Below are positions 30,118 to 45,206 of a DNA stretch of 64,000 bases, in pieces. The stretch's first letter is position 1. Each line of letters opens with the position of its first letter. This stretch comes from an uncultured Nocardioidaceae bacterium (GTDB lineage Bacteria > Actinomycetota > Actinomycetes > Propionibacteriales > Nocardioidaceae). Location of the stretch: positions 62,001-126,000 of the forward strand of contig CADCUI010000020.1 of NCBI GenBank assembly GCA_902805845.1, read 5' to 3'. Under the pieces are notes generated by a model that was not told the origin of the DNA, searched no databases, and was given only the letters and a program-made list of their open reading frames with translations. Position numbers and translations under genes: made by a program.

Positions 30118-30217
30118 CGGTGCAGTCTGCGCCGAGACGGTCAGGACGCGTGCGTCCTCTCCACAGGGTGCCGGTGGTGCGGTGCCGGTGGTGCCGTCGC
30201 GGTGCGACCTGGACTTC

Positions 30218-30284
30218 AGCGCACCGGTGCGCCGTTCTCGGGTCCGACAGGGCGGACGAGGCCGAACATCGCGCACGAGTGCGC
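30218..30284. repeat. Two palindromes with 52-bp spacing upstream of the DUF559 gene and fbiC
   Basis: GCGCACCGGTGCGC at 30218-30231 and the variant CGCGCACGAGTGCGCG at 30269-30284 have centres 52 bp apart, the same period as the array at 29050-29171. The sequence after the first copy also contains GTCCGAC, as in that array. They lie between the divergent DUF559 and fbiC genes, so they could also affect either promoter. Confidence 0.7.
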
Positions 30285-30354
30285 GGATCTCACGCCGACC
30301 TGCCTCGCGGGCGGCACGTCAGGCGGTCCGTGGGGCGGCAGATACCCTCGGACG

Positions 30355-33018
30355 GTGACGGACGCCCCCACCACGCAGCAGGTGCGCCGCGCCCTCGCCC
30401 GGGTACGACGGGGCGCCCCCCTCGATGTCGCCGAGGCGACCGTGCTGCTCTCCGCGACGGGCGACGACCTGCACCAGCTGATGACCGCCGCGGCCCGGGT
30501 GCGGGACGCCGGTCTGGTCGCCGCCGGTCGCCCGGGAACGATCACCTACTCCCCCAAGGTGTTCATCCCGCTGACGCACCTGTGCCGGGACCGCTGTCAC
30601 TACTGCACCTTCGTGACGGCGCCCGGCCGACTGGCCGCCGAGGGCAGGGCGCCGTACCTCTCCCCCGACGAGGTGGTCGCGCTCGCCGCGGACGGCGCGC
30701 GGCTGGGCTGCACCGAGGCGCTGTTCACCCTCGGCGACCGCCCCGAGGACCGGTGGCCCGAGGCGAGGACCTGGCTCGACGAGCACGGCTACGACTCGAC
30801 GCTGGACTACGTCCGCGCGATGGCCATCAGGGTGCTCGAGGAGACCGGACTGCTGCCCCACCTCAATCCCGGCGTCATGTCGTGGGCGGAGATCAACCGG
30901 CTCAAGCCGGTGGCGCCGTCGATGGGAATGATGCTCGAGACCACGTCGACGCGGCTGTTCACCGAGAAGGGACAGCCGCACTTCGGCTCCCCCGACAAGG
31001 ACCCCGCCGTCCGGCTGCGGGTGCTCGAGGACGCCGGCCGGCTCTCGGTGCCGTTCACGACGGGGATCCTCGTCGGCATCGGGGAGACACCGGCAGAGCG
31101 GGCCGAGTCGGTGTTCGCCATCCGGCAGGTCGCCCGCCGTCACGGCCACGTGCAGGAGGTGATCGTCCAGAACTTCCGGGCGAAGCCGGGCACCGCGATG
31201 CGCTCCTCCGCCGACGCCGGCCTCGACGAGCACCTCGCCGCGATCGCCGTGGCCCGGCTGGTGCTCGGTCCGAGGATGAGGGTGCAGGCACCGCCCAACC
31301 TCGTGGACCTCGACGAGTGCCGGGCGCTGATCGACGCCGGCATCGACGACCTCGGCGGCGTCTCCCCGCTGACCCCCGACCACGTGAACCCCGAGCGCCC
31401 CTGGCCGTCGCTCGACCGGCTCCGTGACCTCACGGCCGACGCCGGCTTCGTGCTGCGGGAACGGCTCACCGTCCACCCCGAGTACGTGCGCGCCGGCGAG
31501 CCGTGGCTCGACCCCCGGCTCCACCCTCACGTCACCGCGCTGGCCGCCGAGGACGGGCTGGCCCGCCGCGGCGTACGGCCCGAGGGCCTTCCCTGGCAGG
31601 AGCCCGACGGTGGCTTCTCCGCCCACGGCCACGGCACCGGCCGCACCGACCTCCACCGGTCGATCGACACCACCGGTCGCAGCGCCGACCGCCGCGCCGA
31701 CTTCGACGACGTCTACGGCAATTGGGACGACCTGCGCGAAGCGGCCGCGGCGGCCGGGCACGGGGACGCCGCCGCCGCGGGCGTGGATGGGACTGGCCCC
31801 CCCGGAGCGACGGAGGAGCGGAGGGGGTGGTTGCCCGCGGCGGGGGTGGCACTGGGACCGGACGTCGTGACCGCTCTCCACCAGGCGGAGAGCGACCCGA
31901 GCAGGCTGACCGACCAGCAGGCACTGCTGCTCATGACGGCCGAGGGCCCCGCCCTGGAGGAGGTACGCCGCATCGCCGACGGCCTCAGGCACGAGGTCAA
32001 CGGCGACGACGTCACCTACGTCGTGAACCGGAACATCAACTTCACCAACATCTGCTACACCGGCTGCCGTTTCTGCGCCTTCGCCCAACGCCGTACCGAC
32101 GCCGACGCCTACTCGCTCAGCCTCGAGCAGGTGGCCGACCGGGCACAGGAGGCATGGGTCCTCGGCGCCACCGAGGTGTGCATGCAGGGCGGCATCGACC
32201 CGGAGCTTCCCGGCACGGCGTACTTCGACCTGGTCACCGCGGTGAAGCGACGCGTCCCCGAGATGCACGTCCACGCGTTCAGCCCGATGGAGGTCGTCAA
32301 CGGCGCAGCCCGCACCGGGCTCTCGATCGAGGACTGGCTCCGCAAGGCGCGGGAGGCCGGGCTCGACACGGTGCCGGGGACCGCCGCGGAGATCCTCGAC
32401 GACGACGTGCGGTGGATCCTCACCAAGGGCAAGCTGCCCACCAGCGCCTGGGTCGAGGTGATCACCGCAGCGCACCGGCTCGGCATCCGCAGCAGCGCGA
32501 CGATGATGTACGGCCACGTCGACCAGCCGCACCACTGGGTGGCGCACCTCCGTGTCCTGCAAGGGATCCAGGACGCGGCGTCGGATCACGGGAGCGGCGG
32601 GTTCACCGAGTTCGTCCCGCTGCCGTTCGTCCACACCAGCGCGCCGATCTACCTCGCGGGCATTGCCCGACCCGGCCCGTCGCTGCGGGACAACCTTGCG
32701 GTGCACGCGGTGAGCCGGATCATGCTGCACGGCCGCATCCCCAACATCCAGACCTCGTGGGTGAAGCTCGGCGTCGAGGGCACCCGGCTGATGCTGCAGT
32801 CGGGGGCCAACGACCTCGGCGGCACGCTGATGGAGGAGACGATCTCCCGGATGGCCGGCTCCGAGCACGGATCGGCGAAGACCGTGGCCGAGCTGACCGA
32901 CATCGCGGCCGGCGCCGGTCGGCCGGTGCGCGAGAGGACCACGACGTACGGCGACGTGGCGGGGAGATGGTCGGGGCGGCCGGCGCCACGGACCGCGGTC
33001 GCGATCACGCCTGCCTGA
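30355..33018 (+). CDS. fbiC: 7,8-didemethyl-8-hydroxy-5-deazariboflavin synthase (fused CofG-CofH)
   Basis: The 887-residue fusion makes the deazaflavin chromophore Fo of coenzyme F420 from tyrosine and a ribityl-uracil precursor. It holds two radical-SAM centres: CofG CRDRCHYC with C77, C81 and C84, and CofH CYTGCRFC with C567, C571 and C574. A 50-residue Ala/Gly-rich linker around residue 480 joins the halves. FbiC is the actinobacterial form; many other bacteria and archaea have separate proteins. The GTG at 30355 is chosen because upstream sequence is not conserved-looking and carries the palindromes. F420 made here could serve reductases elsewhere. The gene is followed by a 10-bp hairpin. 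Confidence 0.97.
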
Positions 33019-33154: not shown

Positions 33155-33835
33155 GTGCCGATGCACACGGTCTGGCCGGAGGTGGAGACCTTCCAGGACC
33201 ACTCGACCTGGCGGCCCGACTGGACCCCTGAGCGCATCTGTCTCTACTGGTACCTCACGTTCGAGGACCAGCCGGAGGCAGCGAGCGTCGCCGCCCGGGC
33301 TGCCGGCAATTTGAGCCGGCTGCCCGTCATCTATCAGGTGCCGCCGCGGTGGCTGCACCTGACGCTGTGCGACATCGGCTTCCTGGACCAGATCACGACC
33401 GACCAGCTGGAGCAGCTCACCGATGCGGTCTCGGTGGCGTTGCGCGACCAGCCCCACCTGTCGCTGACGCTGGGACCGGTGCTGCCGTTCGACGACGCCG
33501 TGACCTTGGCCGCCACTCCCGAGGACGACCTACGACAGCTGTGGAGCCGCGTCGCCGACGCGATGCTCTCGGCCGGCCTGGCTCCGGAGCACCATTCCCT
33601 GGACGCCTTCCGGCCGCACGTCACGCTCGGCTACCTGAACCGGCGCACCGACACCCGCACGGTGTGGGACGCCCTGGGCGACCCGTCGGCTCGGGAGTCG
33701 CTCACGGTGGACCGGCTGACGCTCGCCGCGGTGGGCCGGCGGGACGGGCACTACCAGTGGGACTGCGGCGCGGTCATCTCCTTCGGTGACGATGGCGAGA
33801 TGTTGAGCACGACCGGCAACGACTCGACCCCGTAG
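33155..33835 (+). CDS. 2H phosphoesterase (2'-5' RNA ligase family)
   Basis: The 226-residue protein carries the two HxT motifs that define 2H phosphoesterases: H68-L-T70 in WLHLTLCDIG and H155-V-T157 in FRPHVTLGYLNRR. The family includes bacterial 2'-5' RNA ligase/cyclic phosphodiesterase (ThpR) and enzymes acting on cyclic nucleotides; the substrate here is open. GTG 33155 follows GGAGGAGAG by 6 bases; ATG 33161 is an equally good start. The last 85 bases overlap the convergent cytochrome P450 gene, so the C-terminal 28 residues (after about QWDCGAVISFGD) may be a recent extension. Confidence 0.85.
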   Translation: MPMHTVWPEVETFQDHSTWRPDWTPERICLYWYLTFEDQPEAASVAARAAGNLSRLPVIYQVPPRWLHLTLCDIGFLDQITTDQLEQLTDAVSVALRDQPHLSLTLGPVLPFDDAVTLAATPEDDLRQLWSRVADAMLSAGLAPEHHSLDAFRPHVTLGYLNRRTDTRTVWDALGDPSARESLTVDRLTLAAVGRRDGHYQWDCGAVISFGDDGEMLSTTGNDSTP

Positions 33836-35061
33836 ACGATCGACCGTTCGCGGAAGGCGAGGTCGTCGACGGCAGGCCTGAGGTCGGGGAACCGCCGGGC
33901 CAGGGCAGGGAACGCGATCCGCAGCTCCATGCGCGCGAGCTCCGCGCCGACACAACGGTGGAACCCGTGACCGAAGGCGAGCTGCCCGGCCCGGACGGGT
34001 CGCTGAGGGTCGAAGTGCCCGTCCATCCCCACCCGTGGGTCGCGGGCGGCGCCGGCGAGGTGGCACATCACGACGTCGCCGGCCGCGATCCGGCGGCCGC
34101 CGAGCTCGAGCGGCGCCTTCGCGAACCTCGGGAAGGCCACCTGCACGACGCTGAGGTAGCGGAGCAGCTCCTCGACGGTGGGGTCCACGGACGAGGGGTC
34201 GGTGGCCAGTCGCCGGTAGTGGTAGGGGTGCCCGAGGAGGACGGCGGTGCCGAGGGCGAGCATGCTCGCGCTGGTCTCCAGCCCACCGGTGAACGCGCCG
34301 TCGGCGAGTCCGGCCAGGTCGAAGTCGCTGACCTCGTCGCCGCGCTCACGGATGATCTGCCCGACCAGTCCGTCCCCGGGGTCGATGCGCTGACGCGCCA
34401 CGAAGTCGCGGAGGTGCTCGCGCGATCCCGAGATCGCTCCGACCACGCCTGCACCGCCGTACGTCACGTCGAAGCGGGCGGAGGCCAGCGACCGGAACAC
34501 GTCCCGCTCCTCGGCGGGTAGCCCGAGGAGCTCGCAGATGACCTGGAAGGGGACCGGGAACGCGAACTCCCGCACGAGGTCGGGCTCGTCGCCCGCTGCC
34601 GCCAGCGCGTCGAGCCGCTCCTCGACGATCGCGGTGATCCGGGGCCGGAGCCGCTCCAGCCGTCGCATGGTGAACTCGGGAGTCAGCAGCCGGCGCAGCC
34701 GCGTGTGGTCCGGCGGGTCGGTGAACCCCAGGCCACCGATGTCCCCGGACTCGGCGTCGCCGCTGCGGCCGAAGAGGGGGCGGATGTCGTTGCTGAAGGC
34801 AGTGGTGTGGGCGAGGACCTGGCGGACCTCCGGGTCACCGGTGACGAGCCAGACGTTGATGCCGAGGAACGAGGTCAGCTTCTGGACCGGTGCGTCCTCG
34901 CGCAGCCGCCCCAGCCGTCGGCTCGGGTCGAATCCCTGGCGGAGCAGGGGCCACGTCAGCCGGTCGGGCACCCGGTCGACCTGGGACAGGTCGACCGGAC
35001 CCACGCGACGGAGCAGGCCTCGCCGCACCACGGTCTGCACCTGAGACGTGATGCGTCCCAT
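33751..35061 (-). CDS. Cytochrome P450
   Basis: The 436-residue protein is a soluble bacterial P450. The heme-ligand loop FGHGFHRCVGAEL has C370; the I-helix segment GAFTGGLETSASML has Glu-Thr in place of the common Asp/Glu-Thr oxygen-activation pair; the K-helix ExxR is EELLRYLSV. ATG 35061 is chosen over upstream frame extension, which is low-complexity. The C-terminus runs about 17 residues beyond the usual end (after SLPVVLN) into the convergent 2H phosphoesterase gene. The substrate is unknown and no ferredoxin is adjacent. It lies downstream of the carbohydrate operon but after a 235-bp gap, so it is probably a separate unit. Confidence 0.95.
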   Translation of the reverse strand: MGRITSQVQTVVRRGLLRRVGPVDLSQVDRVPDRLTWPLLRQGFDPSRRLGRLREDAPVQKLTSFLGINVWLVTGDPEVRQVLAHTTAFSNDIRPLFGRSGDAESGDIGGLGFTDPPDHTRLRRLLTPEFTMRRLERLRPRITAIVEERLDALAAAGDEPDLVREFAFPVPFQVICELLGLPAEERDVFRSLASARFDVTYGGAGVVGAISGSREHLRDFVARQRIDPGDGLVGQIIRERGDEVSDFDLAGLADGAFTGGLETSASMLALGTAVLLGHPYHYRRLATDPSSVDPTVEELLRYLSVVQVAFPRFAKAPLELGGRRIAAGDVVMCHLAGAARDPRVGMDGHFDPQRPVRAGQLAFGHGFHRCVGAELARMELRIAFPALARRFPDLRPAVDDLAFRERSIVYGVESLPVVLNISPSSPKEMTAPQSHW

Positions 35062-35296
35062 GGCGGTCCCCTTTGCTCGAGGATGGGCCGGCGGGTCCGC
35101 CCCCGGCTGCCGATGGCTCAGTGTAGGGACGCAGACCGGGCCAACCCCGGTGAACAACCCAAGCGGGACATCTGCCGACAAAGGTCCCGGGACTTTCGCC
35201 CCGGAGGGGCGGGACAGGGTGACGGAAGGCATGCCGCGAGGGAGGACCAAGGGCCGCCTCGGGACACCGAACCAGCGAGCGCGACGACGACCGCCG

Positions 35297-36994
35297 TCAC
35301 GGCGTCGTGGAGGGCCTGACCCAGGCGTATCCCCAGGGCCCGAGGGTCAGCGGCTCGACGGCCCGGCCGGTGAGGACGTCCCGCCCGTGCACGGTCGGGA
35401 GCGTGAGGCTCTGCCCCGTCACGTTCGCGACGCAGAAGAGCTCGTCGGGCGTGCCCGCCGCCCGGCGCAGCGCGACGACGCGGTCGTCGAGGGACACCAC
35501 CTGCTGGGTTCCGTACGGCGAGAAGGCTTCGTGCCGCCGGCGTACGTCGAGGAGGTGACGCATCCCGTCGAAGACCGCGCGACGTCGGCCGTCGAGGCGC
35601 AGCTCGTCGAGGAGCCGGTCGGCGTCGAGCATCGCTCGGTTGATGCGACGGTTGATCCGGCTGGTCGCCATGCCCTCGTGGTCCGGCGCGGAGCCGACCA
35701 GCGAGTGGTAGTAGATCGCCGGGATGCCGAGGAAGGCGCAGAGGATGCTGTGGGCGGCCAGTGCCTTGGCGGCGACGATGCCGGCGTCGCGCGCCTCCTC
35801 CGGAGTGCACAGGGCATCGAGGTAGCTCAGGTTCAGCTCGTAGACCGTCCTGGTCCCGTCGGGCCGGACGGCCATCGACACCCCGCCGCCGTGCGCGCGG
35901 GTCCGGTCGACGAGCGCCGCGCGCTCGTGGTCGTCCAGGATCCCCTCGGTCGCCCGCAGGCCGATGCCGTCATGGCTGGCGAGGAAGTTGAACCAGGTGG
36001 CCGTCCGGCTCACCGGCCCCACGCCGGACGCCCAGCCGGTGAGCCGCGCCGAGGAGCCGGACACGAAGGAGTGCAGCACCAGCGGAGGCAGCGCGAACTG
36101 GTAGACGAGGTGGGCCTCGTCGCTGCCGTCGCCGAAGTAGGAGATGTTCTCCTCGTGCGGCACGTTGGTCTCGGTCAGCAGCCGTGCCCCGGGAGCGACG
36201 TGCTCGACCACGGCGCGCCAGAGCTTGATGACCGCGTGCGTCTGCGGCAGGTGGAGGCAGGTGGTGCCGGACTCCTTCCACAGGAAGCCGATCGCATCCA
36301 GCCGGATGGCGGAGGCGCCTCTGGCCAGGTAGCCGAGCAGCACGTCGGTCAGCTCGAGAAGGGTGGCCGGGTTGCGGACGTCCACGTCCACCTGGTCCTC
36401 ACCGAACGTGGTCCAGGCCCAGGCCGTCGAGCCGTCGGGACGGTCGAAGGGGTGGAACAGGGGTGTGGTGCGCGGCCGGGTGACGCGCGAGACGTCGAAG
36501 TCGGGATCCCGCTCGAGGTAGAAGCCGTCGCGTCCCGGCTGCCGGGCCAGCCACCCGGTGAACCACGGGCTGCTGCTCGAGGTGTGGTTGGCGACGAAGT
36601 CGAACATCAGCGCGTAGTCCTCGGCGAGCCTCCCCACGTCGTCCCACGTGCCGAGGTCCGGGTTGACCACGCGGTGGTCGACCACGGCGAAACCGTCGTC
36701 GGAGGTCCAGGGGAACATCGGGAGCAGGTGCACGTCGCTGATCACGTCGCCCACCTGCTCGTGCAGGAAGGCGGCGAGCGTGTGCAACGGGGTCTCGCCA
36801 TGACGGCGGATCCCCTCCCCGTAGGTGATCAGGCAGGCCGTGCGGTGGGTGGGGAGCGCCAGGTGCCGGCGCCGGAGCAGGTCGGCGTACTGCTCGGCCA
36901 ACGCCACCACCCCCCGGCACGCCTCGGCGTGCTCCTCGGGGTAGAGCAGCTCGAGGAGCGGCGAGATCCGTGTCGCCAACCGGTCGGCCGTCAC
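35297..36994 (-). CDS. GH13 subfamily-18-type sugar phosphorylase (sucrose/glucosylglycerate phosphorylase-like)
   Basis: The 565-residue protein is a GH13 enzyme of the sucrose-phosphorylase group, which breaks alpha-glucosides with phosphate to alpha-glucose 1-phosphate. Catalytic residues are nucleophile D233 (AIRLDAIGFLWKESGTT), acid/base E275 (LLTETNVPHEENI) and D342 (FLASHDGIG). The segment GFLWKESGTTCLHLPQTH is typical of the YcjM-like sugar phosphorylases rather than of alpha-amylases; members act on sucrose, sucrose 6-phosphate, glucosylglycerol or glucosylglycerate. It is the last gene of a seven-gene operon, with a GTGA overlap to the GH36 gene. There is no signal peptide, so it acts on imported sugar. 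The exact substrate cannot be decided here. Confidence 0.88.
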   Translation of the reverse strand: MTADRLATRISPLLELLYPEEHAEACRGVVALAEQYADLLRRRHLALPTHRTACLITYGEGIRRHGETPLHTLAAFLHEQVGDVISDVHLLPMFPWTSDDGFAVVDHRVVNPDLGTWDDVGRLAEDYALMFDFVANHTSSSSPWFTGWLARQPGRDGFYLERDPDFDVSRVTRPRTTPLFHPFDRPDGSTAWAWTTFGEDQVDVDVRNPATLLELTDVLLGYLARGASAIRLDAIGFLWKESGTTCLHLPQTHAVIKLWRAVVEHVAPGARLLTETNVPHEENISYFGDGSDEAHLVYQFALPPLVLHSFVSGSSARLTGWASGVGPVSRTATWFNFLASHDGIGLRATEGILDDHERAALVDRTRAHGGGVSMAVRPDGTRTVYELNLSYLDALCTPEEARDAGIVAAKALAAHSILCAFLGIPAIYYHSLVGSAPDHEGMATSRINRRINRAMLDADRLLDELRLDGRRRAVFDGMRHLLDVRRRHEAFSPYGTQQVVSLDDRVVALRRAAGTPDELFCVANVTGQSLTLPTVHGRDVLTGRAVEPLTLGPWGYAWVRPSTTP

Positions 36995-38364
36995 GACGCA
37001 TCCCTGGCCTGTGCGCGCTGTGCCCGCTCGCTCGCGGCCAGCCCGGCACCGGCCCGGAGGCGCTCGAGGGGGAACGGGGACGGGTCCCCGCCCTCACCGA
37101 GGAGGTCACGGACGACGCGCAGGCCCCACTCGTCCAGCTCGGCCACCCGGTCGGAGAACGAGGGCAGCCCCCCGTAGGTCACGGCGGCCTCCGCCCACCG
37201 TCCGCGCTCGGAGTACGACGGCCGGGCAACCAGGCAGTCCGGGTCGTTGACCCAGAAGCGGCCCTGCTGCCAGGCTCGCGCCGCCACGGGCATCAGGCCA
37301 CGGAGACCTGTCGACCCGTCCTCACCACCCGCGTGGAAGGTGTCCGGGGAGACCCGCATCGCGTCCACGAGCCCCACGCTGGGAAGGAGCGGCGCGCCGC
37401 AGCCCACCAGGTAGACGTCGGGCCCCACCGCCTCACGCACCAGCGAGAGCCCGGAGCGGTAGGCCTCCGTGCCCGTCAGGTCCTCGTGGCGCGCTCCCGG
37501 CACCGCGGCGCCGTAGAGGAAGTCGAGCTTGAGGTAGCTGATCCCGAGGTCGACGATCCGCCGGAGCACGTGGGCGAGCAGCTCCCGGACGCCCGGATGG
37601 GTGACGTCCAGGCCAACCAGCTGCTGGCCCCAGTTGCGCCCGGCGTCGCCGACCAGCCAGTCCGGGTGCTCGCGGGCGAGGGTGGTCCGACTGCCGACGA
37701 GGAAGGGAGCGAGCCAGAGCCCGGCTCGTCGACCTGAGCTCCGGATCTCGTCCACCAGGGCCGGCAGTGACCCGAACCGCTCCGCGACGCCGAGCCCCTC
37801 GCCGAGTCCCGGGCTCCAGCCGTCGTCGACCTGCACCACGTCGACCGGCAGGTCGTGCGCGTCGATCGCCCGGAGGTTCTCCAGGACGTGTGCCGACGTC
37901 ACCTCCTCGAAGTAGCGGTACCACGAGCACCACACCGTCGGAGGAGCACCGGGCGCAGCGCTGCCGACCCGACGTGCGAACCAGTCGCCGTACGCCGCCA
38001 GGGCGGCCTCACCTCCGTCGGCACTGCTCGTGGACTGCACCTCTCCGTTGCAGCGGACCACCAGGTGGTCCCCGACGAGCTCCGTCCACAGGGTCGGCAC
38101 GGACCCGAGGTCGCCGGCGCCGTAGCAGCGGGCAGGCTCCCCTCCGCCGGGGTCCACGACCAGCACGCCCTCGGCCTGTACGCCGGTCGGGGCGATCGGC
38201 GTGCCCGGGCGGTACCGCATGGTGTGCTGCCAGTCGGAGCCCGGGGCGAGGCTGGTGCCGTCCACGGGGTACCAGGTCGCGGGGCTCCAGCTCTGCCAGC
38301 CCTCGGCGTAGACGCGGCCCGTCGTCGGGTCGACCCGGACCTCGTCGACGACCTTGCCCGGCAT
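36991..38364 (-). CDS. GH36-family alpha-galactosidase-like glycosidase
   Basis: The 457-residue protein has the GH36 (melibiase) catalytic barrel. The nucleophile is in SYLKLDFLYGA (D281), the acid/base in DAMRVSPDT (D341), and DVVQVDDGW and PPTVWCSWYRYF mark the barrel. It is shorter than typical alpha-galactosidases (about 700), having only a small N-terminal beta part, and lacks a signal peptide. I chose ATG 38364, preceded by CGGAGG; an upstream GTG at 38424 overlaps the Gfo/Idh stop and would add 20 residues encoded by a 12-bp repeat (AACCCGGG). Family members hydrolyse or transfer alpha-galactosides; the linkage for this one is unknown. It shares an operon with the sugar transporter. 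Confidence 0.85.
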   Translation of the reverse strand: MPGKVVDEVRVDPTTGRVYAEGWQSWSPATWYPVDGTSLAPGSDWQHTMRYRPGTPIAPTGVQAEGVLVVDPGGGEPARCYGAGDLGSVPTLWTELVGDHLVVRCNGEVQSTSSADGGEAALAAYGDWFARRVGSAAPGAPPTVWCSWYRYFEEVTSAHVLENLRAIDAHDLPVDVVQVDDGWSPGLGEGLGVAERFGSLPALVDEIRSSGRRAGLWLAPFLVGSRTTLAREHPDWLVGDAGRNWGQQLVGLDVTHPGVRELLAHVLRRIVDLGISYLKLDFLYGAAVPGARHEDLTGTEAYRSGLSLVREAVGPDVYLVGCGAPLLPSVGLVDAMRVSPDTFHAGGEDGSTGLRGLMPVAARAWQQGRFWVNDPDCLVARPSYSERGRWAEAAVTYGGLPSFSDRVAELDEWGLRVVRDLLGEGGDPSPFPLERLRAGAGLAASERAQRAQARDAS

Positions 38365-38420
38365 CTCGCCCCTCCGCTGCTCGCCCCTCGGGTTCCTCCC
38401 CGGGTTCCTTCCCGGGTTCC

Positions 38421-39557
38421 TCACCGGGCGGACCCCGGGCCGGTGCGTGTGCCGGGCACCTCGACCGGCACCCCGCCCGCCTCCGCGGAGCTCGCCGCCG
38501 CCAGCACGAGCTCGATCGAGGCAGCGGCGTCAGCGGCGGAGTTCTCGGGTGGACGGCCGTCGGCGACCGCCGACATGAGCTCGCCCATCGTGGCGGCGAA
38601 GCCGTCGACGAACCATGCCCCGCGCAGCGGGACGTCGGTGGTCGTCGTCCCGTCGTCCCGCTCGAGCCGGTCGGAGTCGAGCAGCACGCTGCCGCGGAGC
38701 GACCCCCTCGTGCCGTGGATCCAGAACGGACAGCCGGGCCTTGAGGTCACCGCGTTGCCGGGGACGCGCAGCATCGCTGTGGCGCCGTTCGCGGCCGTCA
38801 TCGAGATCTGGGCCGCCCATGGGTTGCGTGCCTCGGGTGGCTGACCCGGCAGCCTGGAGTCGGTCGCCTGCACCGACGTGACTGCGCCTCGCCCGTCCGG
38901 GCTGCCGTCGGCCAACCAGCTCCGGGAGATGTCGACCCAGTGCAGCAGGTAGTCGGTGAGCAGCATGTGCGGCAGGTCGTCGAACGGCGTGCCCACCAGG
39001 GGAGGCAGAGGCTTGTCGTGGACGTGGGCGACCCCGACGACCTCGCCGACGACGCCGTCGCGGACGAGCAGGGTTGCCGCCCGCCATGGCGGTGCCCAGC
39101 GGCCGTTGTGGTTCACGGCTACCCGCAGCCCCGCCTCGTCGGCCCGCGCCAGCAGGTCGGGCAGGCGGTCCAGATCCTCCGCGGCCAGCGTGAGCGGCTT
39201 CTGGGCGAGCACGTGCTTGCCGGCCGAGACGGCAGCGTCGATCCAGTCCAGGCGGTTCTCGGGACCGGTGGCGAGGTCGACGAAGCGGACCTCGGGGTCG
39301 GCGAGCAGCTCCTCGGCGCTGTCGTAGACCCTGCCCACGAAGGGGAACCGGTCCCGCACCGTGGCGGTCGTCTCCGGGCTGCGGCTCCACACGCCGGTCA
39401 CCCCGACGCCGTGGTCGCGATAGGCGGGCAGGTGGGCCGACTGGGCGATGGCCCCGCAGCCGAGGATGGCGACCCCGGTGCGGTCCGCCGGGAAGTGCGG
39501 CGAGGTGTCGGGCGTCTCGTCGTGCTGCTCCGGGTCGCGGCCGTGGCCGGAGCTCAT
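38421..39557 (-). CDS. Gfo/Idh/MocA family NAD(P)-dependent oxidoreductase
   Basis: The 378-residue enzyme has the Rossmann motif AILGCGAIAQSAHLPAY (about 30-46), the Lys-Pro motif AQKPLTL with the catalytic lysine, and the conserved HWVDISRSW-type histidine segment in the C-terminal domain. The family oxidises sugar hydroxyls, often at C3. In E. coli the YcjS member of the ycj cluster is such an enzyme, and the neighbouring genes here correspond to that cluster. ATG 39557 overlaps the previous stop (ATGA), and its own stop sits next to the GH36 start. The substrate is inferred from context only. Confidence 0.9.
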   Translation of the reverse strand: MSSGHGRDPEQHDETPDTSPHFPADRTGVAILGCGAIAQSAHLPAYRDHGVGVTGVWSRSPETTATVRDRFPFVGRVYDSAEELLADPEVRFVDLATGPENRLDWIDAAVSAGKHVLAQKPLTLAAEDLDRLPDLLARADEAGLRVAVNHNGRWAPPWRAATLLVRDGVVGEVVGVAHVHDKPLPPLVGTPFDDLPHMLLTDYLLHWVDISRSWLADGSPDGRGAVTSVQATDSRLPGQPPEARNPWAAQISMTAANGATAMLRVPGNAVTSRPGCPFWIHGTRGSLRGSVLLDSDRLERDDGTTTTDVPLRGAWFVDGFAATMGELMSAVADGRPPENSAADAAASIELVLAAASSAEAGGVPVEVPGTRTGPGSAR

Positions 39558-40606
39558 GGGCGTCTCGGTGCGTCCGGGAACCTGAGCACCGCCTGCAGGA
39601 CGTCATGACCGCCCTTGTCGAGCCGTTCGAAGACGGCGGCCACGTCGGCGACGTCCACGACGTCGGTGATCAGGGCGCCGATGTCGACGCGACCAGCCTG
39701 CACCTGCCTCATGAAGGTCCGCACCAACCGGCGTTGGTCCCACCGCGGTCCGAGAGCGAGCGGTGTGCCGGAGATGTGGCTGGCCACGATGCGGACCCGG
39801 TTGTGGTGGAACTCCTCGCCGAGGCGCAGGTACTGGGCGCCGCCCTGGTAGAACCCCGACGCGGCCACGGTCCCGTCGACCGCCACCGACCGCACTGCCT
39901 CGTGCAGCGCGCGGTCGTTGCCGCTGAGCTCGATGGCGGCGTCGACGCCACCGTCGGACCAGGAGTGGACAGCAGCGCCCGCGCCGCCGGGGACGTCGGC
40001 AGGCAGGGTGCGGACAGCCCCCATGTAGCGCGCGACGTCCAGCCGCTTCCTGTGGGCGTCGATGGCGACCACCTCGGCGCCGCCCAGGGTCGCCAGGCGG
40101 GTGGCCAGCAGGCCGATGACGCCCTGGCCGAAGACGGCCACCCGGGAGCCCAGGCGCACCTCGGCGGCGAAGATGCCGTTGAGGGCGATGGCTCCCACGC
40201 GGGCGAAGACCCCGGACAGTGCGTCGCCGGCGTGCCAGACGTTGTCCCGCACGGCCGACGCAGGCAGCACCGCGTCACTGCGGTGCCCCCAGATGCCGTA
40301 GACGATCTCACCGACCTTGGGAGCCTCGACGTCGGGCGCCGCCTCGATCACCTCGCCCACCTCGGAGTAGCCCCACCCCTGCACCGGGTAGGCGAAGGTG
40401 GGCGGTCCCTCGACGAAGAGCCGTCTGTCGGGGTCCCAGGTGCTGGTCAGGTAGGGGTTCGAGCCCCGGTACGCCGTGAGCTCGGTGCCGGCCGAGATCC
40501 CGGAGTACCAGGTGCTGACCCGCACCGACCCCGGCGACAGCGGTTCGGGGTCGTAGGGCGCCAGCCCGATCTCCCGGGGTCCGGTGATCGAGACAACCTG
40601 CGGCAC
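39554..40606 (-). CDS. Zinc-type medium-chain dehydrogenase (YcjQ-like)
   Basis: The 350-residue protein is a medium-chain alcohol-dehydrogenase-family oxidoreductase with a GISAGTE motif near the N-terminus, a short catalytic domain, and the nucleotide motif VAVFGQGVIGLLA. The GIS(A/R)GTE class includes the E. coli YcjQ sugar dehydrogenase. GTG 40606 follows AGGAGG by 6 bases and is a confident start. It is fourth in the operon, 46 bases after the second permease gene. Together with the Gfo/Idh enzyme it gives a pair able to oxidise and reduce one sugar hydroxyl in opposite directions. Confidence 0.88.
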   Translation of the reverse strand: MPQVVSITGPREIGLAPYDPEPLSPGSVRVSTWYSGISAGTELTAYRGSNPYLTSTWDPDRRLFVEGPPTFAYPVQGWGYSEVGEVIEAAPDVEAPKVGEIVYGIWGHRSDAVLPASAVRDNVWHAGDALSGVFARVGAIALNGIFAAEVRLGSRVAVFGQGVIGLLATRLATLGGAEVVAIDAHRKRLDVARYMGAVRTLPADVPGGAGAAVHSWSDGGVDAAIELSGNDRALHEAVRSVAVDGTVAASGFYQGGAQYLRLGEEFHHNRVRIVASHISGTPLALGPRWDQRRLVRTFMRQVQAGRVDIGALITDVVDVADVAAVFERLDKGGHDVLQAVLRFPDAPRRP

Positions 40607-40652
40607 GGGGATCCTCCTGGCTCGGCGGGCGCGGGGGAAGCGGAGGTGGAGC

Positions 40653-41519
40653 TCAGCCCTTCTCCGCGCCGGCGGTGAGGCCACCGGCCAGCCAGCGCTC
40701 GCTGAGGAAGAACATGACGACGATCGGGAGCGTCAGGATGACCGAGCCGGCCATCAGCACGGTCGTCGGCACCTCGATGCTTCCGGCCAGCTGCGACAGA
40801 CCGAGGGACACCGTCCAGTTGTCGCGTCGCTCGACGAGGAACAGCAGGGCGAAGAGGAACTCGTTCCACGCGATCATGAAGATGAACAGCGCGTTCGAGG
40901 CGATCGCGGGCAGGGCCAGCGGCAGGCTCACGTGCCACATCGCCTGCAGTCGCCGACAGCCGTCGATCTCCGCCGCCTCCTCCAGGCTGGCCGGGATGGT
41001 GTCGAAGTAGTTGCGCAGCATGTAGATCGACACCGCCGCGACCTGGGCGACGTACACCACGAGGAGCCCGGTCAGCGTGCCGCGCTGCCCGATCCGGGTG
41101 AAGAACACGAACAGCGGGATCGCAAGCAGGATCGCCGGGAAGAAGTAGACGCCGAGGAACAGCGCGCTGATCTGGCGGCGCCCGAAGAACTCCAGCCGGC
41201 TGACGGCGTACGCGCCGGGAATGGAGACGACGAGGGTCAGCACGACGGTGCCGAGAGCCACCAGCAGGCTGTTCCGGATAAAGGTCAGGAAGCCCTGACC
41301 ACCGTCCTCGGTCGACTTGAGGACGTCGCTGTAAGTGCCGAGGTCGATCTCGTTCCACGCCGGCCACAGGGCACCGGGGTTCTGCAGCACCGAGTCGAGG
41401 GGACGGAAGGACAGCATGACCATGTAGTAGAAGGGGAAGACCGTGACGATCAGCAGGACCGCGATGATCACCGGCCGCAGCGCACCGAAGATCCGGCGTT
41501 CGACCGCGTCCCGGCTCAT
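40653..41519 (-). CDS. Carbohydrate ABC transporter permease (MalG type)
   Basis: The 288-residue inner-membrane permease has six predicted helices and the cytoplasmic EAA loop (EEAAEIDGCRRLQAMW, about 180-200) that contacts the ATPase. It pairs with the MalF-type permease whose stop it overlaps by ATGA. The transporter belongs to the CUT1 family for di- and oligosaccharides. No ATPase gene is present in the locus, so it presumably uses a shared MsiK-like ATPase, as is usual in actinobacteria. Confidence 0.95.
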   Translation of the reverse strand: MSRDAVERRIFGALRPVIIAVLLIVTVFPFYYMVMLSFRPLDSVLQNPGALWPAWNEIDLGTYSDVLKSTEDGGQGFLTFIRNSLLVALGTVVLTLVVSIPGAYAVSRLEFFGRRQISALFLGVYFFPAILLAIPLFVFFTRIGQRGTLTGLLVVYVAQVAAVSIYMLRNYFDTIPASLEEAAEIDGCRRLQAMWHVSLPLALPAIASNALFIFMIAWNEFLFALLFLVERRDNWTVSLGLSQLAGSIEVPTTVLMAGSVILTLPIVVMFFLSERWLAGGLTAGAEKG

Positions 41520-42523
41520 GCCTGCTCCTCCGACCGTCCGAAGAACTTGAGGTACACACCGACCAGGACCGCCAGGATGGCCGCGAGCACGAGCGCCTGC
41601 GCGGCGGCCGCGCCGATGTCGCCGCGGTTGATGAGGTAGTCGTACACGCGGACCGTCACGACCCGCGTCCCGGCGCCGCCGCCGGTGAGCAGGTAGATGT
41701 CGTCGAAGTTGTTGAACGTCCAGATGAAGCGCAGCACAGTGAGCACCGCGATCGTGGGGAGCAGCTGAGGCAGGACGATGTGGCGGAACCGCTGCGTCGG
41801 CGCCGCGCCGTCCACGACGGCGGCCTCCTCGTAGGTCTCGGGGATCGCCTGCATCCGCGCGGTGATGAAGAGGAACGCGAACGGGAACGAGCGCCACCCT
41901 TCGAACAGCACCACGCTGAACAACGCAGTGCTGATGTGCAGGTCGAGGCCGAAGATCGACGCCGACTCGCTGGAGGTGAGGAACGCGATCGGCTCGCTCC
42001 ACCCCAACAAGCTCGTGCCGTAGTGGTTCACGAGCCCGAACTGCGGGTTGAGCAGGGTGGCCCACACGAAGGTCGCCGCGACGACCGGCGCGACGTACGG
42101 CAGCAGCATCGCCGCCCTCACCAGCCCCCGCCCGCGGAAGGGTGTGCGCAGCGCGAGGGCAGCGACCAGTCCGAGCCCGATTGCGCAGGCCGTCCCACCG
42201 ACCGAGTAGACCAGCGTCGTGACCAGCGCGTCGACGAAGCCGTCAGAGGTCAGGACGGTGACGAAGTTGTCGAGGCTGTAGTCGCCGATGATGCCGGTCG
42301 TGCGCAGGTTGAGCAGACGCACCTGCTGGAAGGCCAGCGAGAACGTCCACAGGATCGGCAGCACCACCAACACGAACACGATGACGAAGGTGGGCGAGAT
42401 CAGCAGGTAGCCGGTCCGCCGGTCCTCAGTGCTGCGCACGGACACCTCACGCTGGCGCCGCCCAGGACCCATACCCGGGTCCTGGGTCGGCGCAACCTGT
42501 GCAGTGGAGCTGCTGGTGGTCAC
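41516..42523 (-). CDS. Carbohydrate ABC transporter permease (MalF type)
   Basis: The 335-residue permease has an extended cytoplasmic N-terminus (about 35 residues), six membrane helices and the EAA loop YEEAAVVDGAAPTQRFRHI (about 243-261). It starts 2 bases after the binding-protein stop and overlaps the MalG-type gene, so binding protein and both permeases are expressed together. Specificity is set by the binding protein, not visible here. Confidence 0.95.
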   Translation of the reverse strand: MTTSSSTAQVAPTQDPGMGPGRRQREVSVRSTEDRRTGYLLISPTFVIVFVLVVLPILWTFSLAFQQVRLLNLRTTGIIGDYSLDNFVTVLTSDGFVDALVTTLVYSVGGTACAIGLGLVAALALRTPFRGRGLVRAAMLLPYVAPVVAATFVWATLLNPQFGLVNHYGTSLLGWSEPIAFLTSSESASIFGLDLHISTALFSVVLFEGWRSFPFAFLFITARMQAIPETYEEAAVVDGAAPTQRFRHIVLPQLLPTIAVLTVLRFIWTFNNFDDIYLLTGGGAGTRVVTVRVYDYLINRGDIGAAAAQALVLAAILAVLVGVYLKFFGRSEEQA

Positions 42524-42525
42524 CC

Positions 42526-43923
42526 CTACGACCCTTGAGCGCTGCGTACCGCCTCGGCCGCCGCCGTCGCCGCCTCAGCGGGGTCCTCCCCGTTCGCCAC
42601 CTTGTTGACGGCCTCGGCCACCGGTCGCTCACCCTGGAGGGCCCCGAGCAAGTCGCCCTGCCCCTGCGGGATCGCCCAGCGGGCCAGCTGCTCGGGGCCG
42701 GTCGCCAGCGCGTCGAGCACCTCCTGGCCGTAGAACTTCGACAGCGGCGCCTTGGTCTCCACACCGACCTCCATCTTGGCCCAGGCGTCGGTGAAGTTGG
42801 TCGACCCCTCGGAGTCGCCACTACGCACCGGCACCTTGCCCTCGGGTGCGATCGCGATCCACGGCTCGTATCCGTCGTTCATCATGTAGCTCACGAACTC
42901 GGCGGCCGGGTCGGTGGCGGAGTCGGCGGTGATGGTCCACGACGTGATCTCACCGAAGACCGCCGGCTCGGAGCCGGCGGGACCGGCGATCGAGGTGACG
43001 ACGCCGCTGTTCTTGGCGAGGAAGGCCGGATCCTTCCTGCACTCGGGGCAGGTGGGAAGCGCGTCTTCGCGCAACGCCGCCATCTCGTCGAGGATGAACG
43101 TCGACCAGATGATCATGGCGGCCTGGCCGGCGAAGTAGGACGCCCGCGTCGTGTCGACGTCCTGGCCACCGGAGACCGAGTAGTTCTGCATCAGCTGGCC
43201 GTAGAAGTCGAACGCCTCCACGCAGGCGTCGCTGTCGAGGGTGACCTCGCCCTCCTCGTCCACCAGCTCACAGCCGTTGCCCAAGGCGATGTGCTCGAAG
43301 GTCTGCTCGGTGAAGGAGTCTCCGGCGATGTTCGCGCCGACGAAGCCGGCCAGGTCGGAGGAGTCCAGCTCCTCGGCCGCCGACAGGATCGCGTCGTACG
43401 ACGTCGGGGGCTCGAGCCCTGCCTCCTCGAAGAGGTCCTTGCGGTAGACCAGCAGCTGGGTCCACGACTCGCTCGGGATGGCCAGCTGGGTGTCGCCGTC
43501 GCGGGTCAGCTCCAGAGCGCTCTCGTTGAAGGTCCCCTCGCCGAGGTCCTCCAGAAGGGTGGCCGTGGCGTCGGTGTCGAGAAGCTCGTTGGACGACATG
43601 GTGCGGATCTGTCCCAGGGCCAGCCCTCCGATGACGTCGGGCAGCTCCCCGGCAGCGGCCGAGGAGGTGAGCAGCTGGTTGAACTGGTCCTCGGCGACGG
43701 GCAGGAGCTCGACGTCGACGCCGCTGTCCTCGGTGAAGTCGGCGGCGATCGCCTTGGTGGCGGCGACGCGGTCCGGAAGCTCTTCCTGGATCCAGACCTT
43801 GATGCTGTCACCGTCGCCGGAGCCGTCCCCTGACCCGCCGTCGCCGCCGCACGCGGCCAGGCCGACCAGGGCGATCGACATGAGGGTGGCTGCGCGGGCG
43901 CGTCGCCGTCGATGAGTGGACAT
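42526..43923 (-). CDS. Sugar-binding lipoprotein of an ABC transporter
   Basis: The 465-residue extracellular solute-binding protein has a lipoprotein signal: basic start THRRRRARA, hydrophobic core, and the lipobox LAAC at about residues 19-23 followed by a Gly/Asp/Ser-rich linker. The rest fits the family-1 sugar-binding fold (ELPDVIGGLALGQ, QAAMIIWSTF, TSWTITADS). It contains two close cysteine pairs (CELVD...C and CPECRKD), unusual for this family and able to form disulfides outside the cell. It is first in the operon and faces the ROK regulator gene across 128 bp. ATG 43923 is chosen by the lipoprotein signal. Confidence 0.93.
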   Translation of the reverse strand: MSTHRRRRARAATLMSIALVGLAACGGDGGSGDGSGDGDSIKVWIQEELPDRVAATKAIAADFTEDSGVDVELLPVAEDQFNQLLTSSAAAGELPDVIGGLALGQIRTMSSNELLDTDATATLLEDLGEGTFNESALELTRDGDTQLAIPSESWTQLLVYRKDLFEEAGLEPPTSYDAILSAAEELDSSDLAGFVGANIAGDSFTEQTFEHIALGNGCELVDEEGEVTLDSDACVEAFDFYGQLMQNYSVSGGQDVDTTRASYFAGQAAMIIWSTFILDEMAALREDALPTCPECRKDPAFLAKNSGVVTSIAGPAGSEPAVFGEITSWTITADSATDPAAEFVSYMMNDGYEPWIAIAPEGKVPVRSGDSEGSTNFTDAWAKMEVGVETKAPLSKFYGQEVLDALATGPEQLARWAIPQGQGDLLGALQGERPVAEAVNKVANGEDPAEAATAAAEAVRSAQGS

Positions 43924-43976
43924 GGGGCCTCCGAACGGGTGCGAGCTCTTTTGTCGAGACACTGGACCTAGGCCGC

Positions 43977-44005
43977 AAAACTGTCAACATGAGATGTCCA
44001 GTTGT
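43977..44005. promoter_or_regulatory. Nested palindrome, likely ROK operator
   Basis: AACTG at 43979 and CAGTT at 43999 form arms around a central ACATGAGATGT palindrome, with the centre at 43991. It sits between the transporter operon start (43923) and the ROK gene start (44052) in a stretch noticeably richer in A and T than its surroundings. A repressor bound here could control both directions. Confidence 0.5.
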
Positions 44006-44051
44006 TACACGCAGGCGCGCCGCTGCCGGAGGGCACCCTAGGAGGTGCACC

Positions 44052-45206
44052 ATGCCACACGGTCCGGGTGACGTGCTGGACCTCATCCGGCATGGACGCG
44101 CGCAGACGCGCGGTGACGTGGTGAGGATGACCGGGCTGTCCCGCATGACGATCTCGCAGCGACTTGCCGACCTGCTCGCCTCGGGGATGATCGTCGAGGG
44201 TGGCACCACCGAGGCCACCGGGGGCCGGCGGCGCCGGAGTCTCGCCTTCAACAACTCCCAGTCCCGAGCGCTCGTCGCTGCGGTCGACACCACGCACACC
44301 CGCATCGCCGTGACCGACCTCGCGGGTGCGGTCATCGCCGACGACGAGATCGAGGCTCCGGTCCACGACGGGCCGTCATCGGTGCTCGACCGCATCGCGG
44401 CGTGCATGGCTGCCGTGCTGGAACGCAGCGGGACGCAGCCGTCCGACCTCTGCGGGAGCGGGATCAGCCTTCCGGGTCCGGTCGACCCGGCCACCGGGCG
44501 GCCCAGCCAGCCTCCGATCCTGCCGGGATGGGACGGCTACCCCGTGATCGAGCACCTCCAGGCAGGGCTGTCCGGGGTGCCGGTGCTGGTCGCGAACGAC
44601 GCCGACGCCGCCGCGCTCGGTGAGCACGCCGCGGGGTACGCCGGCACGACGTCTCTGTGCCTGGTCAAGGTGTCGACGGGCATCGGCACCGGCATCGTCA
44701 TCAACGGGCAGTCCTACACCGGCGTCGACGGTGGCGCCGGGGACATCGGACACGTGCGGGTGTCGTCCCGGCAGGACGCGCTGTGCCAGTGCGGTGGCCG
44801 GGGCTGTCTGGCGGCGGTGGCCAGTGGCCGCGCGGTGGCCCGTGAGCTGACCGCGCTGGGTGTTTCCGCCGCAGCGGGCCACGACGTGGGCGCGCTCCTC
44901 CGCGCCGGGAACGCAGACGCGGCGCGGCTGACCCAGCAAGCCGGGCGCCGGATCGGCGAGGTGATGGCCACGGTCGTGTGCCTGCTCAACCCCGAGGTGG
45001 TGCTCATCGGCGGCGACCTGGCTTCGGCACCGCTGCTGTCCGGCATCCGGGAGGCGCTCTACCGGCTCTCGCTTCCCCGGGCCACCCGGCACATGACACT
45101 CCAGCTGGGCTCGCTGGGCGAGGACGCCACGGTGGCAGGGCTCACGAGGCTCGTGGTGGACCACGAGTTCTCCGCCGAGGCGGTCAACCGGAAGCTGCGC
45201 AGCTGA
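44052..45206 (+). CDS. ROK-family transcriptional regulator
   Basis: The 384-residue protein has an N-terminal winged helix (LIRHGRAQTRGDVVRMTGLSRMTISQRL, about 10-45) and a ROK/sugar-kinase-like domain with the ATP/sugar motif segments ALVAAVDTTHTRIAVTD, SLPGPVDPATGRP and the zinc-binding CQCGGRGCL (about 257-265). The match to regulators such as XylR/NagC is clear. GAGG in AGGAGGTG lies 7 bases before ATG 44052. It is divergent from the sugar transport operon and most likely represses it until an imported sugar or its product is bound. Confidence 0.93.
   Translation: MPHGPGDVLDLIRHGRAQTRGDVVRMTGLSRMTISQRLADLLASGMIVEGGTTEATGGRRRRSLAFNNSQSRALVAAVDTTHTRIAVTDLAGAVIADDEIEAPVHDGPSSVLDRIAACMAAVLERSGTQPSDLCGSGISLPGPVDPATGRPSQPPILPGWDGYPVIEHLQAGLSGVPVLVANDADAAALGEHAAGYAGTTSLCLVKVSTGIGTGIVINGQSYTGVDGGAGDIGHVRVSSRQDALCQCGGRGCLAAVASGRAVARELTALGVSAAAGHDVGALLRAGNADAARLTQQAGRRIGEVMATVVCLLNPEVVLIGGDLASAPLLSGIREALYRLSLPRATRHMTLQLGSLGEDATVAGLTRLVVDHEFSAEAVNRKLRS

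Follow-up and report, generated by a model that had tools for sequence, protein, structure and literature searches.

A conserved actinobacterial operon related to the Escherichia coli ycj cluster, in which a putative alpha-galactosidase of family GH36 alternates with the epimerase YcjR

Introduction

In Escherichia coli, the enzymes YcjQ, YcjR, and YcjS reportedly carry out a guloside-glucoside conversion by way of 3-keto sugars, as found in Raushel's work. The interconversion of D-gulosides and D-glucosides by these three enzymes is named in PMC11543891. What the E. coli ycj cluster acts on in nature is still open, as is the in vivo purpose of glucosylglycerate phosphorylase (GGaP) in organisms that do not produce glucosylglycerate (PMC7178133, PMC11543891). 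GGaP itself can be recognized by two diagnostic features, a (T/S)ETN motif at beta-strand 5 and a conserved Glu that replaces Gln in loop A (Franceus and Desmet, PMC7178133).

The locus described here lies in a 64,000-nucleotide stretch of DNA (the window) from an uncultured Nocardioidaceae bacterium. In the original prediction, it had been regarded as a ycj-like operon with a divergent ROK regulator.

Results

Organization and conservation of the operon

Eight genes were found (Table 1), seven on the minus strand and the ROK gene divergent from them, with Pfam and NCBIfam calls of SBP_bac_1, BPD_transp_1 (twice), ADH_zinc_N, GFO_IDH_MocA, Melibiase (GH36), Alpha-amylase, and ROK. Neighboring genes overlap by 4 bp at four junctions (41516-41519, 39554-39557, 38421-38424, and 36991-36994), and at a fifth the genes for the binding protein (SBP) and permease 1 are 2 bp apart, leaving the junction of permease 2 with the medium-chain dehydrogenase (MDR) gene as the sole exception to the tight packing. 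The overlaps and the 2-bp gap therefore indicate a single unit, with one transcript likely. The predicted operon with its divergent ROK gene was thus confirmed, together with the families of all eight genes. Directly downstream of the operon is a cytochrome P450-like gene (33751-35250, minus strand), and beyond it a large radical-SAM (FbiC-like) gene (30202-33018, plus strand); on reading of their sequences, both are apparently unrelated to the operon.

Table 1. Genes of the operon and the divergent regulator, in window coordinates
Gene product	Coordinates	Strand	Remarks
Sugar-binding lipoprotein of ABC importer, YcjN-like	42526..43962	-	PF01547; likely start ATG 43923
CUT1 permease 1, YcjO-like	41516..42523	-	PF00528; 35% to YcjO
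CUT1 permease 2, YcjP-like	40653..41519	-	PF00528; 39% to YcjP; start ATG 41519
Medium-chain dehydrogenase (MDR), distant YcjQ homologue	39554..40684	-	PF00107; likely start GTG ~40606
Gfo/Idh/MocA oxidoreductase (GFO), predicted NAD(P)-dependent keto-sugar reductase	38421..39557	-	PF01408/PF22725
Putative compact GH36 alpha-galactosidase, cytoplasmic	36991..38424	-	PF02065
Predicted GH13_18 glucosylglycerate phosphorylase (GGaP), YcjM type	35297..36994	-	41% to YcjM
Divergent ROK-family regulator	43989..45206	+	PF00480; likely start ~44052

An alignment of MDR was used to scan 84,980 species, and the best 80 loci were examined. All 80 were actinobacterial, and in about 25 of them all eight genes were present in unchanged order. 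The genera sharing the operon were Nocardioides, Microbacterium, Cellulomonas, Knoellia, Ornithinimicrobium, Microlunatus, Naasia, Mycetocola, and others, and the divergent ROK gene was retained in sister operons. Since the order is kept in about 25 genomes, the arrangement is a stable unit and not due to chance; the operon is conserved, gene for gene, among soil actinobacteria. A scan of viral contigs with MDR gave one distant match, which was set aside.

Importer and regulator region

The nearest PDB relative of the SBP was YcjN of E. coli (8vqk; E = 2.8e-37), to which it is 30% identical, and a lipobox, LAAC, was read in its sequence. By homology, the binding protein and permeases are assigned to the YcjNOP type. 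Two cysteine pairs in the SBP had been singled out as a quirk of this protein; the pairs (C231/C247 and C305/C308) are present, but they were found in 86 of 87 aligned SBPs, with YcjN as the sole exception, and are therefore a mark of this SBP family. The absence of an ABC ATPase gene from the operon, also remarked on in advance, was confirmed and extends to nearly all sister operons. Many ABC ATPases are encoded in the host genome, the best of which is near full length, of the sugar-importer type, and 46% identical, making it a plausible shared partner of the importer.

No clear operator palindrome was found in the intergenic region between the SBP and ROK genes. A 9-mer, ATGCTTGAC, or its complement was present in 13 of 31 such regions, partly from duplicate loci, and often continued into TTGACA; the region in the window (approximately 43923-44052) carries TGTTGACA. 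The recurrent 9-mer is possibly a promoter or a ROK operator.

The GH13_18 protein and its exchange with GH63

The GH13 protein was 41% identical to YcjM over its full length, with 543 aa aligned (E = 1e-154, 445 bits, blastp), and the best sucrose phosphorylase chain in the PDB scored 153 bits with phmmer. Its best equivalog, sucrose_gtfA (TIGR03852), scored 187.7 bits, below the cut-off of 334.4. Both diagnostic features of GGaP were observed, TETN at residues 274 to 277 and, in loop A, E386 following Y385, and each was invariant across 24 aligned sequences. The protein is therefore, as far as sequence can tell, a glucosylglycerate phosphorylase (EC 2.4.1.352), in agreement with the GGaP-type assignment made originally, and it did not group with plain sucrose phosphorylases.

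In sister operons with the same SBP, permeases, and MDR, a GH63 "MGH1-like" gene was found in place of the GH13 gene. Its product matched the mannosylglycerate hydrolase TTHA0978 of Thermus thermophilus (E = 2e-70) and structures of the glucosylglycerate hydrolase (GgH) of M. hassiacum (E = 2e-59), and it retains the sequence that surrounds the residues for substrate and catalysis (residues per PMC6608630). For counting exchanges, 105 loci centered on MDR were used, with duplicates removed and a distance limit applied. GH13 occurred in 26 of these, GH63 in 55, and both in none; an independent-contrast test of this exchange had too little power. In a further locus (L074), the same SBP and permease genes are accompanied by a GGaP gene, without dehydrogenases or GH36. 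As two unrelated glycosylglycerate enzymes swap places, the importer most likely takes up a 2-O-alpha-glycosyl-D-glycerate; we infer both the glycerate aglycone and the use of the imported compound by the operon enzymes. The "unknown alpha-glycoside" of the original prediction is thus not wholly unknown and can be narrowed to the glycosylglycerates. A role of the operon in import and catabolism of glycerate glycosides is well supported.

A galactokinase (283.7 bits) and a glycerate kinase (361.2 bits) were detected in the host genome, each above its cut-off. No GpgS above the cut-off was found there, so that the substrate is probably taken up and not made by the cell itself. Neither a GH63 MGH-type hydrolase nor a GH4 protein was found in the window's genome, and the literature searched contained no mention of alpha-gulosyl- or galactosylglycerate.

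Another GH63 MGH1-like protein, GH63b, is shorter at about 390 aa and is encoded at L140:11053-12234 and also in L045, L046, L139, L147, L153, L157, and L117. It often adjoins MDR/GFO/GH36 where GH63 stands in for GGaP. In L045 (12760-13962) and L046, a gene of the GlcNAc 2-epimerase family (AGE) lies downstream of GH36-MDR-GFO; these loci also encode a dedicated ABC ATPase and a sugar importer of an unrelated type.

The GH36 protein and its alternation with YcjR

The GH36 protein matched TmGalA with an E value of 1.7e-56, and by fold it matched TtGalA (Z 38.2, 2.3 Å over 394 residues) as well as TmGalA (Z 36.3). Residues W165, D200, D201, W237, K299, D301, R357, and D361 were invariant in 25 sequences, and the motifs KLD (D301), RVSPD (D361), QVDDG, WCSWY, and CGAP aligned with those of TmGalA. 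By sequence and fold, it is a putative alpha-galactosidase of compact type that branches with TtGalA and TmGalA and has a complete, ordinary active site, for which cleavage should need no keto-sugar chemistry. The oxidize-cleave-reduce route proposed originally is consequently not upheld, since the GH36 site is ordinary and E. coli YcjQRS interconvert glycosides instead.

Among the 105 MDR loci, an intact YcjR was found in 55 and a GH36 in 45, with both in none and neither in 5; L191 has a remote piece of GH36 at its outermost end, which lay beyond the distance limit and was not scored as "both." The metal-site residues are kept in the YcjR homologues of sister loci. GH36 had been predicted to take the place of the GH65 phosphorylase, and this has to be revised, because GH36 alternates with the YcjR epimerase instead. 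The lack of a visible YcjR, by comparison, was borne out: none was found in the operon or window, and there was no match in the host genome, which is 96% complete and was searched without a positive control.

At least three unlike types of GH36 partner MDR, namely the compact type, a three-domain type (L145, L116, and L237), and that of L235. The gene order in L235, which is one incomplete MAG, is GH63b, GGaP, MDR, YcjR remnant, and GH36. The remnant (L235:8056-8379) is a 108-aa N-terminal YcjR-like piece without metal ligands, and its last codons overlap the GH36 start, as if GH36 took over from YcjR; a second locus of this kind was sought in the family of L235, and none was found. On the MDR tree, the YcjR and GH36 labels were clustered, with approximately six changes on the best tree, two of them on well-supported branches. 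The exchange is therefore recurrent but not strictly independent in the statistical sense, with too few contrasts for significance.

The dehydrogenases

MDR was 29% identical to YcjQ over 324 aa (E = 4e-25). The two proteins share the GTE and ExxHxN motifs, and the canonical catalytic-zinc Cys is missing from both; MDR is predicted to be a 3-dehydrogenase of the glycosyl group. For GFO and YcjS, the identity was 22% over 146 aa (E = 3e-4). The lysine of the GFO QKP motif (K120), D202, and H206 were invariant in 25 sequences. The GFO model (pLDDT 87.8) had the Gfo/Idh fold with many tied matches (Z 30 to 34), among which no single function stood out. At these levels of identity, activity cannot be confidently transferred from YcjQ and YcjS; MDR has a distant likeness to YcjQ, and GFO is no more than remotely related to YcjS. 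The Gfo gene was not beside GH36 in L129 and L235, and none was seen next to MDR in Jiangella.

A second MDR-Gfo/Idh pair (MDR2/GFO2) was observed on the opposite strand at L168:12999-14844 and in other Nonomuraea/Streptosporangiaceae loci. It adjoins an MDR-YcjR-GH63 operon and occurs alone in L245 to L248 and L250.

Discussion

The reading tentatively favored, at somewhat under an even chance, is that of a catabolic operon for scavenged 2-O-alpha-D-glycosyl-D-glycerates, in which a guloside would be converted via a 3-keto form to a galactoside for GH36, with GGaP as an additional outlet. The lipoprotein and two permeases, energized by an ATPase encoded elsewhere, would take up the glycosylglycerate. 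Where the sugar is glucose, phosphorolysis by GGaP would yield glucose 1-phosphate and D-glycerate. Where it has another configuration (D-gulose, by analogy with E. coli YcjQ), it would be oxidized at C3 by MDR. D-Gulose and D-galactose differ at C3 only, and therefore the 3-keto forms of a guloside and a galactoside are identical. GFO could thus reduce the 3-keto product to an alpha-galactoside, which GH36 would cleave to galactose and glycerate, to be taken by the galactokinase and glycerate kinase of the cell. In loci with YcjR, the alternative would be epimerization at C4 (gulo/galacto to gluco) and reduction to a glucoside, on which GGaP or GH63 would act. If the 3-keto product can be reduced straight to the galactoside, the C4 epimerase is needless, which would account for loci having either YcjR or GH36. 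The gulo-to-galacto idea would also explain why GFO is usually found with GH36 in operons of this kind and why a GH36 lies inside a glycosylglycerate operon. The gulo-to-galacto step, the regio- and stereochemistry of MDR, the direction of GFO, and the natural substrate are what we infer. The narrower claim of an undescribed redox route from D-guloside to D-galactoside through the shared 3-keto form, with a dedicated GH36 replacing YcjR and running parallel to GGaP, is possible but doubtful.

The dehydrogenases might instead serve an unrelated polyol or inositol step, with two separate outlets in the operon, GGaP for glucosylglycerate and GH36 for an imported alpha-galactoside, and an importer that takes the glycosylglycerate family or mixed alpha-glycosides. 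The ordinary alpha-galactosidase site of GH36 is consistent with this, as are the best score of GFO, against inositol 2-dehydrogenase (67 bits), and the weak matches of MDR to IolM. However, every inositol-family match was far under its cut-off, and MDR stands beside YcjR or GH36 in 100 of the 105 loci, which would be unexpected for an unrelated polyol step, so this reading appears unlikely. A role of GFO, with or without MDR, as an oxidoreductive glycosidase dependent on NAD or as a 3-keto-glycoside eliminase system (as in GH109/GH188 or the levoglucosan pathway), to which GH36 would be accessory, is improbable. The GFO model did match NAD-dependent sulfoquinovosidases (8qc6, Z 33.7) and levoglucosan dehydrogenase (Z 32.5), but at approximately 20% identity and tied with many plain dehydrogenases, and the same operon has dedicated glycosidases in GH36 and GGaP/GH63.

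Dehydrogenase steps are in principle reversible, and MDR and GFO could give imported alpha-galactosyl- or glucosylglycerate a gulo/allo configuration that would serve in storage, protection, or detoxification; this is very improbable given the catabolic layout of an importer with two glycoside-cleaving enzymes and a divergent ROK gene. There is a similarly slight chance of an ordinary sucrose/raffinose locus, with GH13 as sucrose phosphorylase and GH36 as raffinase. GH13_18 and GH36 occur together in known raffinose loci, and the best PDB matches of the GH13 protein were sucrose phosphorylases, but YcjM was far closer than any of these chains, and GH63 glycosylglycerate hydrolases substitute for GH13 in sister operons. 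The GGaP signatures of GH13 led to rejection of a plain sucrose/raffinose locus.

On the favored reading of glycosylglycerate catabolism, an importer combined with swappable GGaP/GH63 and YcjR/GH36 modules would offer an answer to the purpose of GGaP and the substrate of the ycj cluster, namely scavenging of glycosylglycerates whose sugars differ in configuration. The model further predicts a new shortcut, at the enzyme level, between gulo and galacto sugars. The enzyme families are each known; for their combination and for the YcjR/GH36 and GGaP/GH63 exchanges, no earlier description was found in the literature searched.

Comparison with known systems

The likeness to ycj held for GGaP, SBP, permeases, and MDR, all homologous to the E. 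coli cluster. In common with ycjMNOPQRSTU-W, the window operon has GGaP (41% identity), SBP (30%), permeases (35 to 39%), MDR (29%), and a Gfo/Idh enzyme, the last being just a remote relative of YcjS. It differs in lacking YcjR, YcjT, and YcjU, in the presence of GH36, and in having a ROK regulator, whereas that of E. coli ycj is of the LacI type. With TtGalA and TmGalA, the operon GH36 shares its fold and active-site residues; unlike them, it is found in a context of glycosylglycerate enzymes and sugar dehydrogenases. The GH63 hydrolases, represented by T. thermophilus MgH and M. hassiacum GgH, occupy the GGaP slot in sister operons and act by hydrolysis, whereas phosphorolysis is predicted for the GGaP of the window operon.
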